NCBI GenBank assembly: GCA_003152315.1
Contig: PLZV01000062.1
Location: 28,626-84,476, forward strand
Source: Verrucomicrobiota bacterium
GTDB lineage: Bacteria; Verrucomicrobiota; Verrucomicrobiia; Palsa-1439
Direction: 5' to 3'
Length of the DNA stretch: 55,851 nt
Position 1 is the stretch's first letter, and the number at the start of each line of letters is the position of its first letter. The notes under the pieces are model-generated. The model did not search any database, was not told where the DNA came from, and saw only the letters and a program-made list of their open reading frames with translations. The translations under genes were made by a program, and so were the position numbers. This document shows positions 6,944 to 45,358 of this stretch, one piece after another.

Positions 6944-8118
6944 CGCCTTTGCCCGACATCTTGGAGATCAAACCGCTCACGAAGCCGCCGAATTGCACGA
7001 TCACGGTGCCCGGCTCAAAGAGTATCACCAACCGCGCCTTGATTCTCGCGGCGCTTGCCAAAGGCAAATGCACGTTGCGTGGCGCATTGTGGGCCGACGA
7101 CACGCAGGTGATGGTCGATTCACTGCAAAAACTCGGGTTCGACACGACGGTCGAGCCTGATCCAAACGAGGATTGCAATCGCACGATCACGGTCATTGGA
7201 CGCGGTGGCGAAATCCCTGCGAAAAAGACAGAATTGTACGTCGGCAATGCCGGCACCGCGGCGCGATTCCTGACGGCGCTGGTTTGTCTCGGTCATGGGG
7301 AGTACAGCATTCGCGGGGACGAGCGGATGCATGAGCGACCGATGCACGACCTGTTTTATGCACTACAGCAACTGGGTGTGGAAGTCCAAGCCACACATGG
7401 CTGCCTGCCAGCCGTTATTCGAACGAAGGGACTAAAGGGCGGCCATGTCACAGTTAGCGCCAAGCAGAGCAGCCAGTTCGCCAGTGCGCTACTGCTGATC
7501 GCGGACAAGGCGCAATTCGAGTTGCAACTGGTGGAACCAGACGAGCCTTACAGCTACGTGGACATGACCCGCAAAATGGTGAAAAATTTCCGCCATGACT
7601 ATCTGATTGAGCCCGATCTCTCGAGTGCATCCTACTTCGTGGCGGCAGCCCATTTGACAGCGGGGTGCGTGGAAATTGGTGGCCAACCTCGAAATTCCTT
7701 ACAGGTCGATGGCAAATTTCCCCAGTTTCTCCCACCACCAACGACTGTGTCCCGGTTGCGGGACTTGGGCGATAGCGTGATGACGCTGGCCATCTGTGCG
7801 TTATTCGGAAAGTACCCGGTCAGCATTACGGACGCGGCAAGGATGCGTGAGCAGGAAAGTGATCGAATTCATGCAATGGTAAAGGAATTGCTGCGTGTTG
7901 GAGCGAAGGCTGAGGAGCGCAAGGGTGGTTTCACTGTCTGGCCCGCCGAACCCGGCCAACTGCACGGTGCGGACATCGAAACGTATAATGACCATCGGAT
8001 AGCTATGTGTTTTTCTGTGTTGGGATTGAAAGTTCCGGGGATTCGTATTAAGAATCCACAGTGCGTGAGCAAAACGTTTCCAAATTTCTTCGAGAAGCTG
8101 GAGCAACTGCGACAGTGA
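6940..8118 (+). CDS. aroA: 3-phosphoshikimate 1-carboxyvinyltransferase (EPSP synthase)
   Basis: AroA joins shikimate-3-phosphate and phosphoenolpyruvate to form EPSP. The 392-aa protein has the PGSKSITNRALILAAL motif near residue 24 and the NAGTAARF loop. It also has the catalytic Asp in DLGDSVMTLAICA and MREQESDRI near the C-terminal domain, where the family usually shows an RxKExDR motif. The GTG start at 6940 overlaps the upstream stop (GTGA), and its own stop overlaps the cmk GTG in the same way. This is an operon with coupled translation. It is slightly shorter than the usual 420-430 residues, from trimmed loops rather than a truncated end. Confidence 0.96.
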   Translation: MTPLPDILEIKPLTKPPNCTITVPGSKSITNRALILAALAKGKCTLRGALWADDTQVMVDSLQKLGFDTTVEPDPNEDCNRTITVIGRGGEIPAKKTELYVGNAGTAARFLTALVCLGHGEYSIRGDERMHERPMHDLFYALQQLGVEVQATHGCLPAVIRTKGLKGGHVTVSAKQSSQFASALLLIADKAQFELQLVEPDEPYSYVDMTRKMVKNFRHDYLIEPDLSSASYFVAAAHLTAGCVEIGGQPRNSLQVDGKFPQFLPPPTTVSRLRDLGDSVMTLAICALFGKYPVSITDAARMREQESDRIHAMVKELLRVGAKAEERKGGFTVWPAEPGQLHGADIETYNDHRIAMCFSVLGLKVPGIRIKNPQCVSKTFPNFFEKLEQLRQ

Positions 8119-8837
8119 GCAACCCATCGACAACCGACAACGTCGTCGTGGTGGCGGTGGACGGACCGGCCGCCAGCGGCAAGAGCACCGTGTCGCGGGC
8201 GCTGGCCCGGATGCTGGGCTACAACTATGTGGATACCGGCGCGATGTACCGCGCGATTACCTGGAAGGCGCTCGAGGAAGGGATCGACGTCGAAGACCCA
8301 ATCGCGGTGATCGCGATGATCCACCGGATCAAGATTACCTTTGAGATCGTTGACCATCAGGCGCGGATGCTGATTGACGGTTTTTATCCGGGCGATGCCG
8401 TTCGCAAGCCGCACGTTACCGAGAAAGTCTCGACCATCGCGGCCATGCCCGAAGTGCGCCACGTCCTCGTGCAACATCAACGGTCGCTGACCAAGCTGGG
8501 CAGCCTGGTGATGGAAGGACGCGACATCGGCACGGTGGTGTTTCCCAACACGCCGTACAAATTCTATCTCGAAGCCAGCCCGGAAGTGCGGGCGCGGCGT
8601 CGCAAGCGGGATTTGGAGGCGATGAAGATCGATGCCAGCCAGGAGGGCGTGAAGGAATCACTCCAGCGCCGCGACAAAAAGGACACGGGCCGCAGCACGT
8701 CACCGCTGCAGATCGCGCTGGGCGCCACCGTGATCGAGAACTCGAATTTGTCGGTCGAAGAAAACGCCAAGGTGTTGCTGGACCACATTCGCCAGCAAGG
8801 CCAGCGCCGTGGCAGCTTCGGCGTCGGCGGCGCCTGA
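8115..8837 (+). CDS. cmk: Cytidylate kinase
   Basis: Cmk phosphorylates CMP and dCMP. The GTG at 8115 is chosen because it overlaps the aroA stop as GTGA and brings the P-loop GPAASGKST to about residue 17; a longer frame from 8061 would lie inside aroA. The 240-aa product has YVDTGAMYRAIT, the CMP-binding insert and EGRDIGTVVFPN, followed by the lid region RRKRD. The stop lies 4 nt before the plsC ATG. The cmk-plsC-rpsA order is shared by many bacteria and supports the assignment. Confidence 0.97.
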   Translation: MSNPSTTDNVVVVAVDGPAASGKSTVSRALARMLGYNYVDTGAMYRAITWKALEEGIDVEDPIAVIAMIHRIKITFEIVDHQARMLIDGFYPGDAVRKPHVTEKVSTIAAMPEVRHVLVQHQRSLTKLGSLVMEGRDIGTVVFPNTPYKFYLEASPEVRARRRKRDLEAMKIDASQEGVKESLQRRDKKDTGRSTSPLQIALGATVIENSNLSVEENAKVLLDHIRQQGQRRGSFGVGGA

Positions 8838-8841
8838 GCGC

Positions 8842-9480
8842 ATGAGGCAACTCTGGTACCGGTTCTGCCGCTTCCTGTATCGCGTCTACTTCTATTTATA
8901 TCATCGCGGCCGGGTCTATAACGCCGAGCGACTTCCCGCGCAGGGGGCGTTCATCCTGGCCGGGAACCACGTTAGTTTTCTCGATCCGCCCTTTTTCGGG
9001 CTGGCCTGCCAGCGCGAAGCGTTCTTCATGGCGCGTGACACCCTCTTTCGCAATCCGCTGGCCAACTGGGTTCTGCGGAGTTGGAACTGTGTGCCCATTA
9101 GCCGCGATCGTGGCGACATTGGCGCCATGCGGACCGTGTTGCGGATGCTCGGTGAAGGCAAGGCGGTGCTGATGTTTCCCGAAGGCACGCGTAGCGAGAA
9201 CGGCGAGCTACAGGAGGCGCGCGCGGGCATCGGCATGATCGCGGCGCGGGCGAACGTTCCCATCGTCCCCATGCGCATCTTCGGCACGGACCGCGCGCTG
9301 CCGCGCGGCGCGAATTTCCCGCACCCCGCGCGGGTGGAAATCAAGTTCGGCGAGCCGTTCCTGTATCCGTTACCCGCGGAATTCGAGAAACTGCGCGGCG
9401 ACGCGGTCAAGGCGGTCTACCTCGACATCGGGCGCGAAATCATGCAGCGGATCGCGGCCTTGAAGCCCCAAACCGAGTGA
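8842..9480 (+). CDS. plsC: 1-acyl-sn-glycerol-3-phosphate acyltransferase
   Basis: This membrane-associated acyltransferase makes phosphatidic acid from lysophosphatidic acid. The ATG at 8842 gives 212 aa; an in-frame GTG-type extension to 8809 would overlap cmk and add no homology. The catalytic NHVSFLD (H-x4-D) motif lies near residue 42, and the substrate-binding FPEGTRS motif near residue 114. An N-terminal aromatic-rich stretch (WYRFCRFLYRVYFYLY) probably anchors it to the inner membrane. It is co-transcribed with cmk and followed by a 120-bp gap before rpsA. Confidence 0.93.
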   Translation: MRQLWYRFCRFLYRVYFYLYHRGRVYNAERLPAQGAFILAGNHVSFLDPPFFGLACQREAFFMARDTLFRNPLANWVLRSWNCVPISRDRGDIGAMRTVLRMLGEGKAVLMFPEGTRSENGELQEARAGIGMIAARANVPIVPMRIFGTDRALPRGANFPHPARVEIKFGEPFLYPLPAEFEKLRGDAVKAVYLDIGREIMQRIAALKPQTE

Positions 9481-9502
9481 ATTAGCGGCTTCCAGAAAGG
9501 TC

Positions 9503-9532
9503 TTGCTAACAACCCGCTCCACGCCTTATATT
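9503..9532 (+). promoter_or_regulatory. Putative promoter of rpsA
   Basis: TTGCTA (9503-9508) and TATATT (9527-9532) are 18 nt apart, about 70 nt upstream of rpsA. An AGGAGA ribosome-binding sequence follows, roughly 14 nt from the ATG, which is a long spacing. Confidence 0.4.
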
Positions 9533-39047: not shown

Positions 39048-39217
39048 TGCCCTGAGTCGGATCGAAGGGACCGTCGTCACGTCCTTCACCCAAACGCTTC
39101 TTCTCCGGGCTACCGATCATGACCGCACTATACCACTATCGTAACACGATGTCTAGAAGAAATATTAATCTCCGATTCCGCCTTCGTCACCCTACCCGGT
39201 AGTGTCCTAATATAGAG

Positions 39218-39896: not shown

Positions 39897-40213
39897 GGGT
39901 CAGGTCTCAACATCAAACAATCCGGTAGTCCCCTAATCTGAAATTTCTAGCCTCAGCTTGACGCTCCGCAGTTACGCAGTGTAACTCTACGGCGTGAGTG
40001 GTTTCTCCACGCCTCCGAAGGACGCACGAAGTCCAGCCATGCGCTGGTACTGGTATCCAAAGGGCAACTCATTCAAGAACTGGTACCGGGTGATCTGGCC
40101 CAAACAGCCGTTGCGGATAGTCTCACAGTAAGACGAATCATCGGGCTCAACTCAGCACCCGTGACATTTTCACGCGCTTCTCGCTCGTAATGGACGCTGT
40201 ACAGAACTGACCC
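39897..40213 (+). mobile_element. GGGTCAG-ended cassette-like element A
   Basis: The element begins GGGTCAGGTCT and ends AGAACTGACCC, an 11-bp inverted repeat with one mismatch. Its first 35 bases are identical to those of element B. Bases 40184-40221 (38 nt spanning the right end) are identical to 40940-40977 of element B. The 317-bp interior holds no clear gene. Confidence 0.6.
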
Positions 40214-40237
40214 TGGTCACGCCGCAAGAGAGGAATA

Positions 40238-40969
40238 GGGTCAGGTCTCAACATCAAACAATCCGGTAGTCCGCCGATCTTAGATTTCCAGCCCCGTCTT
40301 GAGGCTTCACAGTCACGATCTCGGCAAAAAACGATTTTTGGAGTCCGGCAACGGCAGCCACATTCCGCATGATTTTGCATTCTCTTTCATCAGCCACTTG
40401 ATACCGGGAAAACAACATAATCGTCGCTTTCCCGAAGCAAGCATGTCGCAAGCTTTCTCGATCCGACGCCGGCGCGTTTCCGCTTGCTTGGCGGTGGTGA
40501 TCGAGAAAATCCAGTCCCGGCGCGCCATCGGCGTAATGTCCGTCCACGCTGCCTGCGCCCGCGGGGCAGCGGCAAGGGCTTGGCGTAGATCCATTGGCAC
40601 CCGGATCTCCGGTTCTTCCCCGACCCGCGTAATCTCCACCGTTACCGTGTCTCCAGCGTCCGCGCCGGCCGCATCGTGCAGGGCTTTGGTAACCCGGAGC
40701 CAGTGACTTCCTTTGCCGTTTGGTTCGAGAGCGGCTCGAAAAGGAAAGCCGTTGATAGTTGCCTCAACCATCGTCATTCCTCGTGATGGAAGCTTCGCAC
40801 TCGCGTTCCTGGGCAGAGTGAGCAGCGTCCACGATCCAATCTTTCCGGTTGCCTTGGCCCGAACCAACCTGCCACGAAAGCGAATCGTTACCGGGGTTTC
40901 TTGCCGCTTGGCCAGCTTCATATATTGTTATACTACTCACTCGTAATGGACGCTGTACAGAACTGACCC
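40238..40969 (+). mobile_element. GGGTCAG-ended cassette-like element B with DUF1905 gene
   Basis: It has the same left end (GGGTCAGGTCT..., 35 identical bases at 40238-40272) and the same right end (AGAACTGACCC inside a 38-bp repeat, 40940-40977) as element A, from which it is separated by 24 bp. The interior is one gene (40313-40921) read towards the left end. No transposase is present. Confidence 0.6.
40313..40921 (-). CDS. DUF1905 / YdeI-OmdA domain protein
   Basis: The 202-aa protein has an N-terminal DUF1905 beta-barrel (residues 10-100: VTIRFRGRLVRAKATGKIGSWTLLTLP, then NGFPFRAALEPNGKGSHWLRVTKALHDAAG). A C-terminal YdeI/OmdA helix pair follows (RRDWIFSITTAKQAETRRRRIEKACDMLASGKRRLCCFPG). 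YdeI proteins are linked to stress or peptide resistance, but the mechanism is unknown. The last 20 residues differ from what I expect of the family, and the stop lies just inside the element's left repeat. The gene is the sole cargo of element B. Confidence 0.85.
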   Translation of the reverse strand: MKLAKRQETPVTIRFRGRLVRAKATGKIGSWTLLTLPRNASAKLPSRGMTMVEATINGFPFRAALEPNGKGSHWLRVTKALHDAAGADAGDTVTVEITRVGEEPEIRVPMDLRQALAAAPRAQAAWTDITPMARRDWIFSITTAKQAETRRRRIEKACDMLASGKRRLCCFPGIKWLMKENAKSCGMWLPLPDSKNRFLPRS

Positions 40970-41069
40970 TGGTCACGAGTTCTTTGATCGCGCGACGCGG
41001 GTCCAGGCGAGACGACCCCGCCTACAGGACAGCGTCGGTGCGATGTGATCTGTCGATTGCACATTTGCC

Positions 41070-41098
41070 TTGCGCGAGGTGGCTGCCGATTTCATCAT
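41070..41098 (+). promoter_or_regulatory. Putative leaderless promoter of thrC
   Basis: TTGCGC (41070-41075) and CATCAT (41093-41098) are 17 nt apart; the ATG at 41108 follows after 9 nt with no Shine-Dalgarno sequence. Confidence 0.35.
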
Positions 41099-41107
41099 GC
41101 ACGGGTT

Positions 41108-42454
41108 ATGTCCTATCGCGCCTGGTTTCAATGCATCAATGAAGGATGTCGGGCCACCTACCCGCTCAACGAAATCATCTACCGTTGCCGGAACTGCGGA
41201 TCGTTGCTGGAAGTGACCCACGACCTTGCCGCGTTGCGCCAACGCGACGCGAAAGCGTGGATGAAGTTATTCGAGGAGCGCTACAAGTCCAACACCTGGC
41301 CCTACGGCTCCGGCGTCTGGGGCAAGAAGGAATGGATCCTGCCGCAGATCGCCGACGACAATATTGTGTCGATGTACGAGGGTGGGACGAATCTGTTCTG
41401 GGCCGAACGTTTCGGCAAGGTGATCGGCGTGGACGATCTGTGGGTAAAACTTTGCGGCAACACGCACAGCGGTTCGTTCAAGGACCTCGGCATGACCGTG
41501 CTGGTGTCGCAGGTCAAACAAATGATCAGTGAAGGCGCGCCCATCAAGGCGGTCGCGTGTGCTTCCACGGGCGACACGTCGGCCGCACTGGCCGTCTACT
41601 GCGCGGGGGCCGGCATCCCGGCGATTGTGTTGCTGCCGAAAAACAAGATTTCCATCGCCCAACTCGTGCAGCCCATCGCCAACGGCGCGCTGGTGCTCTC
41701 GTTGGATACGGATTTTGACGGCTGCATGAAGGTGGTGCAGGAGATCACCAAGGACGACACGATTTACCTCGCGAACTCGATGAACTCGTTGCGCATCGAG
41801 GGACAAAAGACGGTCGGTATCGAGATCGTCCAACAGTTCGACTGGGAGTGTCCGGATGTGATCGTGATCCCGGGCGGCAATCTCGGCAACGTGTCGGCGC
41901 TGGGCAGCGGCTTGTTGATGATGCGTGATCTCGGGTTGATCACCTCCCTTCCCCGCATCGTCGTCGCACAGGCCGAGCGAGCGAATCCTCTGTACCGGTC
42001 GTATCTGAAACACTTCGACAGCTTCGAGCCGATGCAGGCGCAGAAAACGCTGGCCAGCGCGATCCAGATTGGCAACCCGGTCAGCTACGAAAAAGCCGTG
42101 CGCACACTCCGGCAGTTCAACGGCATCGTCGAACAAGCGACCGAACAGGAACTGGCCGACGCCGCGGCGCTGGGAGACCGCACCGGCATGTTCACCTGTC
42201 CGCATACCGGCGTGGCGCTGGCGGTGTTGATCAAGCTGCTCAAGGCCGACAAGATCGACAAGTCGGAGCGCGTCGTGGTGATTTCAACCGCCCACGGCTT
42301 GAAGTTTGCCGATTTCAAGGTGCGCTACCACGAGGGCAACCTGGAGTTTCCGTCCCAATACGCCAACCAGCCCATCGAACTGCCGCCCAGTGTGGCGGCC
42401 GTCAAGGAAGCGCTCGCGCACGCGTTGCAGAAGAGGAACAAGACCGATGCCTAA
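41108..42454 (+). CDS. thrC: Threonine synthase
   Basis: This PLP enzyme converts O-phosphohomoserine to threonine. The ATG at 41108 (MSYRAWFQC) is chosen over the upstream frame to 41045. The 448-aa product has an N-terminal zinc-ribbon-like cluster (CINEGC and CRNCG, residues 9-35) and the PLP-binding Lys in [10 protein letters not shown] (near 125). [15 protein letters not shown], the phosphate loop GGNLGN and a C-terminal STAHGLKF follow. It overlaps the next gene by 8 nt, so the two are coupled. The order suggests shared control of the threonine/methionine branch point. Confidence 0.95.
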
Positions 42455-43655
42455 GAAATCCCCCAAACCAAAACATTACCAGCCGGCCACGCTCGCTATC
42501 CATGGACCCGGCCGCGAGCCGAAGGCACACTTCGCCGTCACCACCCCCATCGTCCAGACCTCGAACTACTACTTCGACTCCACGGAAGATGTGCTGAAGT
42601 TCATGAAAGGCAAGAGCGAGGGACACGTGCTTCGCGAGCACGAATACGGCCGCTATGGCAACCCGACCCAACAGGAATGCGAGCGCAAACTCGCCGCCGT
42701 CGAAGGCGCCGAGCGTGCCCTGCTCTTCTCCACCGGCATGAGCGCGGTCGTCATGACGTTGCTGGCCTACCTGCGCCACAACACCCACATTATCTTCACC
42801 AAGGACTGCTATCGTCAAACCCGCGATTTCGCCACCAACATCCTGACCGGGTTCGGCATGCAGGTCTCCATCGTTGACCCAACGGCGCGGGAAATCGCCA
42901 GGGCCATCCGGCCCAATACCACCATCATCTTCACCGAGTCACCCACCAATCCCTACCTGCGCGTGCTCGACATCCCGGCAGTCGTCAAAGTCGCCCGACA
43001 ACGCAAGGTGAAGACCATCATCGACGCCACCCTGGCCACTCCCTACAACATCCAACCGCTCGCCATGGGCGTGGATATCGTCATCCACTCCGCCACCAAA
43101 TACCTGGGCGGTCACAACGACCTGCTGGCCGGCGTGGCCCTCGGGAAAAACAAAATGCTCGATGAGCTCTACCGGTTGCAACGCATGATCGGCGCAACAC
43201 CGGGACCGTTCACTTGTTTCCTGCTCGAACGCGGACTGAAAACCTTCGCGCTGCGGATGGAACAACACAACCGGGCCGGCCTCGCCATCGCCCGCCTGTT
43301 GGAGTCACATCCCAAAATCGAAAAGGTCTGGTACCCCGGCCTGACCTCCCATCCCGACTACCAGATCGCCCGCGAACAGATGCGCGGATTCGGGAGCGTC
43401 ATCACCTTCCTCGTCAAAGGCGGCGAAAAAGAAACACGGAAATTCATCGACGCACTGGAGTTGTTCCTCATCACGCCCAGCCTCGGCGGCAGCGAAAGTT
43501 TGGTCACCCAGATGTCCACGATGTCGTTCTTTGACTACCCCGAAACCTACCGGCGCTCGATCGGCATAGTGGACAACCTCGTCCGTATCGCCCTCGGCCT
43601 CGAAGACACGGACGACCTTATCGCTGATCTCCAGCAGGCGTTGGGAAGAATCTGA
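42447..43655 (+). CDS. metB: Cystathionine gamma-synthase / trans-sulfuration PLP enzyme
   Basis: The 402-aa protein is a Cys/Met-metabolism PLP enzyme. ATG 42447 is inside the thrC end, and longer frames are shadows of thrC. Motifs: [57 protein letters not shown], and [15 protein letters not shown] with the PLP Lys near residue 217; [15 protein letters not shown] comes near the end. It probably joins cysteine to an activated homoserine to give cystathionine. With thrC adjacent the acceptor could be O-phosphohomoserine; acyl-homoserine sulfhydrylase or methionine gamma-lyase activity cannot be excluded by sequence reading. Confidence 0.88.
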
Positions 43656-45329: not shown

Positions 45330-45358
45330 GCGTCAGGTCCCATCATCAAACAATCCGG
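45330..45358 (+). repeat. Third copy of the GGGTCAG left-end sequence
   Basis: GCGTCAGGTCC, a few divergent bases, then CATCAAACAATCCGG match the left ends at 39897 and 40238. It has no obvious right-end partner downstream. The remaining gap 45303-45581 shows only shadow frames. Confidence 0.55.

Follow-up and report, generated by a model that had tools for sequence, protein, structure and literature searches.

TIRtrons, which end in terminal inverted repeats (TIRs) with the motif GGGGWSAS, and their Y1 transposases, the TIRYTs, which are relatives of the RAYTs, are known together with families of solo TIRs (Di Nocera et al. 2013, PMC3733652), and a TnpA-Y1 subclass 2.1 has been described (Quentin et al. 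2018, PMC6006769). Mobile insertion cassettes (MICs), or transporter ISs, have been defined (PMC3129680) and include a resistance-gene example (PMC5444012); a cognate transposase is presumed to activate them in trans (PMC3129680, PMC5444012). REP, BIME and REPIN elements are cognate to RAYTs (PMC3116915, PMC2817692).

The window, a stretch of 55,851 nucleotides (C48:28626-84476) in the 4.89-Mb genome of a Verrucomicrobiota bacterium (G000), contains two tandem units, A (39897-40213) and B (40238-40969), which have features of each of these systems. In common with TIRtrons, TIRYTs and subclass 2.1, the left end of both units is a TIR of this kind, the motif GGGGWSAS is present, solo TIRs are dispersed, and a Y1 gene on contig C61 encodes a protein with a HUH motif and a DnaA-like C-terminus. 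Unlike autonomous TIRtrons, the two units lack a transposase gene and have unequal ends, and one of them, B, holds a host gene. As in MICs, IS-type ends surround passenger DNA and a transposase is absent, the passenger of B being a YdeI/OmdA gene; the units differ from MICs in having ends of the HUH/Y1 TIRYT kind and a right end that is strongly diverged, and their activation in trans is hypothetical. The short non-autonomous repeats, which are clustered and cognate to one resident Y1 transposase, resemble REP, BIME and REPIN elements, but the TIR lacks a GTAG-tagged hairpin and on its own does not fold, its copies number 13 rather than hundreds, and units of the A/B type are 0.3-0.7 kb long with coding interiors. 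Gene-carrying units with TIRYT ends were not found in a limited literature search, and searching the literature with the literal end sequences gave unrelated matches only. TIRtrons, solo TIR families and mobile insertion cassettes are already known; a TIRYT-ended gene-carrying unit would be a new variant. The interpretation preferred here, which has about an even chance of being correct, is that A and B are non-autonomous TIRtron derivatives, similar to mobile insertion cassettes in their design and to TIRYT elements in their ends, and that B has captured a gene.

Layout of units A and B

The 35-bp left ends of A (from 39897) and B (from 40238) are identical when read directly, as are the 38-bp right ends (40184-40221 in A and 40940-40977 in B), and both identities had been recorded correctly in the initial annotation. 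Since the left ends agree at 35/35 positions and the adjoining 45 bp at 71%, they are sharply demarcated, far beyond chance. The near-perfect inverted match of the outer 11 bp, also described there, holds as well (GGGTCAGGTCT and GGGTCAGTTCT); 11 bp by itself would mean little. The two units have the same orientation and are 24 bp apart, and the spacer has 8 bp in common with the sequence downstream of B. In the genome, the 35-bp left end has two more near-copies, both on contig C5. The right repeat, with up to three mismatches allowed, has two copies genome-wide, those of A and B, and left and right ends paired in this manner occur in the genome in A and B alone.

In A, the TIR1 portion of the left end (39897-39922, forward strand) is followed by a body of about 205 bp, called E (39923-40130, forward strand); the GGTAGTCCCCTAATCTGAAATT stretch at the start of E is related to a second dispersed repeat. 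Body E is about 86% identical to copies on C5, which begin at 7837, 8751, 9268 and 10261 and are all in the same orientation. The C5 copies and that of B are truncated at differing points. In B, the identical TIR1 (40238-40263, forward strand) is followed by a truncated E (40264-40317, forward strand) that is 90% identical to a C5 copy versus 84% to A. Body E is closed by a hairpin, of which A retains a relic (40113-40129, forward strand) that is recognised from the aligned copies; the palindromic consensus of the hairpin has a folding energy of -12 kcal/mol. For the left end together with the sequence next to it, folding gives no stable structure (MFE 0). Between the hairpin relic and the right repeat, A has an extra TIR-like stretch, GGGCTCAACTCAGCACCCGTGACA (40143-40166, forward strand), with a weight-matrix score of 17.6.

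The initial annotation described A as carrying no gene. This is probably wrong, because A appears to hold a conserved frame of 45 codons with a GTG start, VSGFSTPPKDARSPAMRWYWYPKGNSFKNWYRVIWPKQPLRIVSQ (39994-40131, forward strand), which is also present in two C5 paralogues of its body. Among the three complete copies, dN/dS is 0.12-0.16, based on no more than 8-19 differences per pair. No family match to this frame was found in Pfam, PHROGs or NCBIfam. Neither the 25-bp TIR1 nor a degenerate pattern for the 45-aa ORF had a match in exact scans of the GTDB genome contigs; such matching is strict, and the collection may omit records closely related to the genome of the window. Another dispersed repeat end, GGTAGTGTCCTAATTTGAA, is found at 39198 in the window and at L072-L080, nine places in the genome; several of its copies are followed by different small ORFs, and copy L077 has an inverted partner on its other side.

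The ends and the resident Y1 transposases

There are eleven Y1_Tnp matches in the genome. One of them, on C61, is an apparently intact Y1 gene with a perfect 29-bp inverted repeat, ATGGGGTCAGGTCTCAACATCAAACAATT, on its two sides. This TIR includes, without a difference, the first 25-26 bp of the left ends of A and B (24/24, 0 mismatches). The initial annotation had guessed at a REP-associated (Y1) transposase; this was a good guess, since the left end agrees at every base with the TIR of the C61 gene. No Y1 gene is located inside A or B, and their cognate autonomous element is the one on C61. The C61 protein has a Y1_Tnp domain, a sub-cut-off match to the REP-associated tyrosine transposases, the HUH motif NHYH and a candidate tyrosine downstream of it. 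Its C-terminus (about residues 280-347) matches long open frames, about 457-460 aa in length, from several genomes; these are taken as dnaA because the same C-terminal stretch weakly matches the DnaA model. Two other TIRYT genes, at G000:C1:45708-46181 and C38:142433-142906, are about 68% identical to the C61 protein and run into contig ends, which suggests a high-identity repeat that was collapsed in the assembly.

A second perfect TIR, GGGGTCAAGGCTTGACTCTTGACA, is present at two other loci, on C57 and C49, and the relatives have further TIRtron TIRs, mostly of the form GGGGTCAACTCTNNACA. At the position of the motif GGGGWSAS, the left end of A reads GGGGTCAG and that of B reads AGGGTCAG, one base off. 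IS200/IS605-type HUH/Y1 enzymes act on single-stranded ends and produce no target duplication. In the flanks of TIRtrons and of A and B that were examined, no target duplication is evident, which is consistent with HUH/Y1 enzymes, since such enzymes make none.

TIR1 has 13 copies in the genome, most of them solo, and the sole inverted TIR1-TIR1 pair is formed by the two copies on C61. One copy, at 45330-45353 (forward strand) in the window, had been taken for a third left end. A copy of the left end does exist at this position, but it is degenerate, with 3 mismatches in 24 bp, and solo. Since it has a counterpart at the orthologous place in the sister species G002, this copy is old rather than the border of a third cassette.

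The right repeats contain a putative inverted TIR-type end at 40191-40213 in A and at 40947-40969 in B, which reads GGGTCAGTTCTGTACAGCGTCC in the inward direction. It agrees with TIR1 at 16/23 positions and is about equally similar to the TIRs of several relatives. Within the window, the consensus GGGTCANNTCTNNACA, which is seen in the TIRs of relatives, matches the four ends of A and B alone, in inverted pairs; it was written after both ends had been seen and is supportive rather than a blind test. Scored with a weight matrix built from TIRs other than those of A and B, the right end reaches 9.2; in real G002 DNA, a fraction of 1.8e-5 of all positions score this high, and the chance of such a score within a 20-bp neighbourhood is estimated at roughly 4e-4. 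The score is notable because the end sits at the edge of the shared repeat and in the right orientation. A blind scan of the whole window with the matrix does not single out the right end, and random windows reach higher maxima. With moderate confidence, the right end can be read as a diverged TIR in inverted orientation.

The YdeI gene and comparison with relatives

The gene in B (40313-40921, reverse strand) encodes a protein of 202 aa with Pfam matches to OmdA and DUF1905, and its original assignment as DUF1905/YdeI was correct. Positions 79-699 of B (40316-40936) align at 87% identity with G002:C7:41882-42502, which is a YdeI/OmdA-DUF1905 gene of G002, a sister species in the same genus of which about 0.8 Mb were read as stretches. 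The G002 gene lacks both the first 80 bp of B and its right repeat. On the 5′ side, the homology extends as far as the repeat, about 15 bp ahead of the start codon, while on the 3′ side it stops inside the gene: four codons at the end are missing, and the frame is closed by a TGA at the junction. The boundaries of the gene segment are thus the boundaries of the repeats. The gene in B is intact, and comparison of dN (0.081) with dS (0.33) indicates that it is under purifying selection. In G002, the gene has the same neighbourhood, with the helicase region on one side and a stretch matching 45.5-50.7 kb of the window on the other, and a TIR is located about 290 bp upstream. Relative to its flanks, the gene is inverted between the two species.

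The gene in B has a parallel on C25 (L046, G000:C25 around 110264, locus 1500-1719 and 2454-2557), where two TIR1 copies in the same orientation bracket a 104-bp copy of the neighbouring gene, 89% identical to it; G002 lacks the whole insert, which is about 1 kb long. Between B and the solo TIR1 at 45330, the window has a threonine synthase and cystathionine gamma-synthase-like gene pair (41045-43655) with 78% DNA identity to the more distant G007. The pair is absent from the syntenic place in the same-genus G002, which hints that it was replaced or transferred. Along the threonine-synthase synteny with G007, no empty site was found.

In the parts of G002 examined, body E occurs once. The first search for E in relatives, which scored 8 candidates per genome, missed this copy, and its negatives are not proof of absence. 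The G002 copy starts with GGGGTCAACTCAATACTCTGTACA, which, with ATT before it, is 25/27 identical to the TIR of G002's own TIRYT; the element end and the resident enzyme match in both species. A second type of small unit consists of a TIR, about 60 bp and a hairpin, GTTATGGATAGTGCTATCCATAA, and the TIR is at the start in 3/3 copies (L154:9591 and 12790 in G002, and L022:about 1680 in G000:C23). These TIRs resemble the types of each species. On these few copies, the element ends appear to follow the resident enzyme, species by species.

The initial annotation pointed to presence/absence variation among relatives as a test of the cassette idea. On C5, beside an FHA gene, a stretch with two tandem units (8749-9505) is represented in G002 by 66 bp, in which the units are missing. 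This is presence/absence variation for sibling units, with an empty site that is not letter-perfect. For A and B, a clean empty site was not found in the relatives compared, in which the flanking synteny is rearranged. A palindromic repeat, GGAGGGACGCGCTCCGTCGCGTCC... (L018:8081-8152), is scattered through all six relatives searched.

Origin of the two units

The cassette family that was originally proposed is supported in part, in that the left end matches a Y1 TIR, a gene is cut at the repeats and sibling units on C5 vary in presence, but the pairing of ends is limited to A and B: a genome search with both ends gives 13 copies for the left, mostly solo, and for the right those of A and B alone. 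The solo copies give some weight to the main alternative, a history that makes A and B a mosaic cluster of solo TIRs, the TIRYT counterpart of REP/BIME clusters. Several TIR types would have landed independently in a single intergenic region near YdeI, and local inversion, deletion and short duplication would mimic cassettes. This is a real possibility, although not a probable one. It would account for the 11/13 TIR1 copies outside inverted TIR1-TIR1 pairs and for the extra TIR-like stretch in A, and the TIR families of other genomes do occur as singles, dimers and groups (PMC3733652). The inversion of YdeI within the same neighbourhood, with the G002 TIR about 290 bp upstream, also fits, because a local rearrangement would move the gene as well. 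Harder to reconcile with independent landings are the confinement of the right repeat to A and B, the repeated left-right order and the flush cut of YdeI at both repeats.

The identity of the 38-bp right repeats, which are unique to this locus, and the position of B in the same orientation 24 bp from A could also reflect tandem duplication of one A-like unit, followed by replacement of the second interior by the inverted YdeI through ordinary recombination; the transposase would then have no role after the first insertion. Such an origin is unlikely, since 35 identical positions are followed by 45 bp at 71%, the body of B resembles a C5 copy more than that of A (90% versus 84%), and the spacer and the downstream sequence share just 8 bp, unlike the products of a simple tandem duplication. 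Integron-like gene cassettes, or a DDE-type MITE or transposon with inverted ends, are suggested by tandem units in the same orientation with common ends and variable interiors, a design seen on C5 too, and by the hairpin that the A/B junction can form (-12.3 kcal/mol, z -2.3). The match of the left end to the TIR of a resident Y1 transposase makes both of these very improbable. The DDE-type MITE was set aside on its flanks, which are without target duplication, and the integron reading on inspection of the A/B junction by eye, where an attC-like core was not seen.

If A and B are instead non-autonomous TIRtron derivatives, A would represent the family's own body, with the small ORF and the hairpin relic retained, and B would be a unit in which most of body E was replaced by the YdeI/OmdA gene from the same chromosomal neighbourhood. 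The resident TIRYT would nick single-stranded DNA at the TIR ends, acting in trans, and imprecise use of the ends or repair may have joined the host gene between two of them. Cleavage, excision, transposition, the capture step and mobilisation in trans by the C61 enzyme are all inferred here from sequence. A largely domesticated transposase family may, in this manner, occasionally package host genes. It is a tentative extension, and a somewhat doubtful one, that HUH transposases of the TIRYT/RAYT class, which are generally regarded as domesticated enzymes spreading nothing but tiny repeats, build gene-carrying units with a fixed TIR end and variable interiors (the captured YdeI and the C25 gene fragment as well as the conserved small-ORF body), arranged in series of the same orientation, with ends that co-evolve with the resident enzyme.

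It is not clear why bacteria retain RAYT-like single-copy transposases, of which the known products are small repeats. If the preferred interpretation is true, a TIRYT-bounded unit that holds an intact gene under purifying selection, and has an end sequence that tracks the resident enzyme from species to species, would open a way for these enzymes to move genes. It would also provide a simple test system, consisting of one TIRYT, two ends and one passenger.
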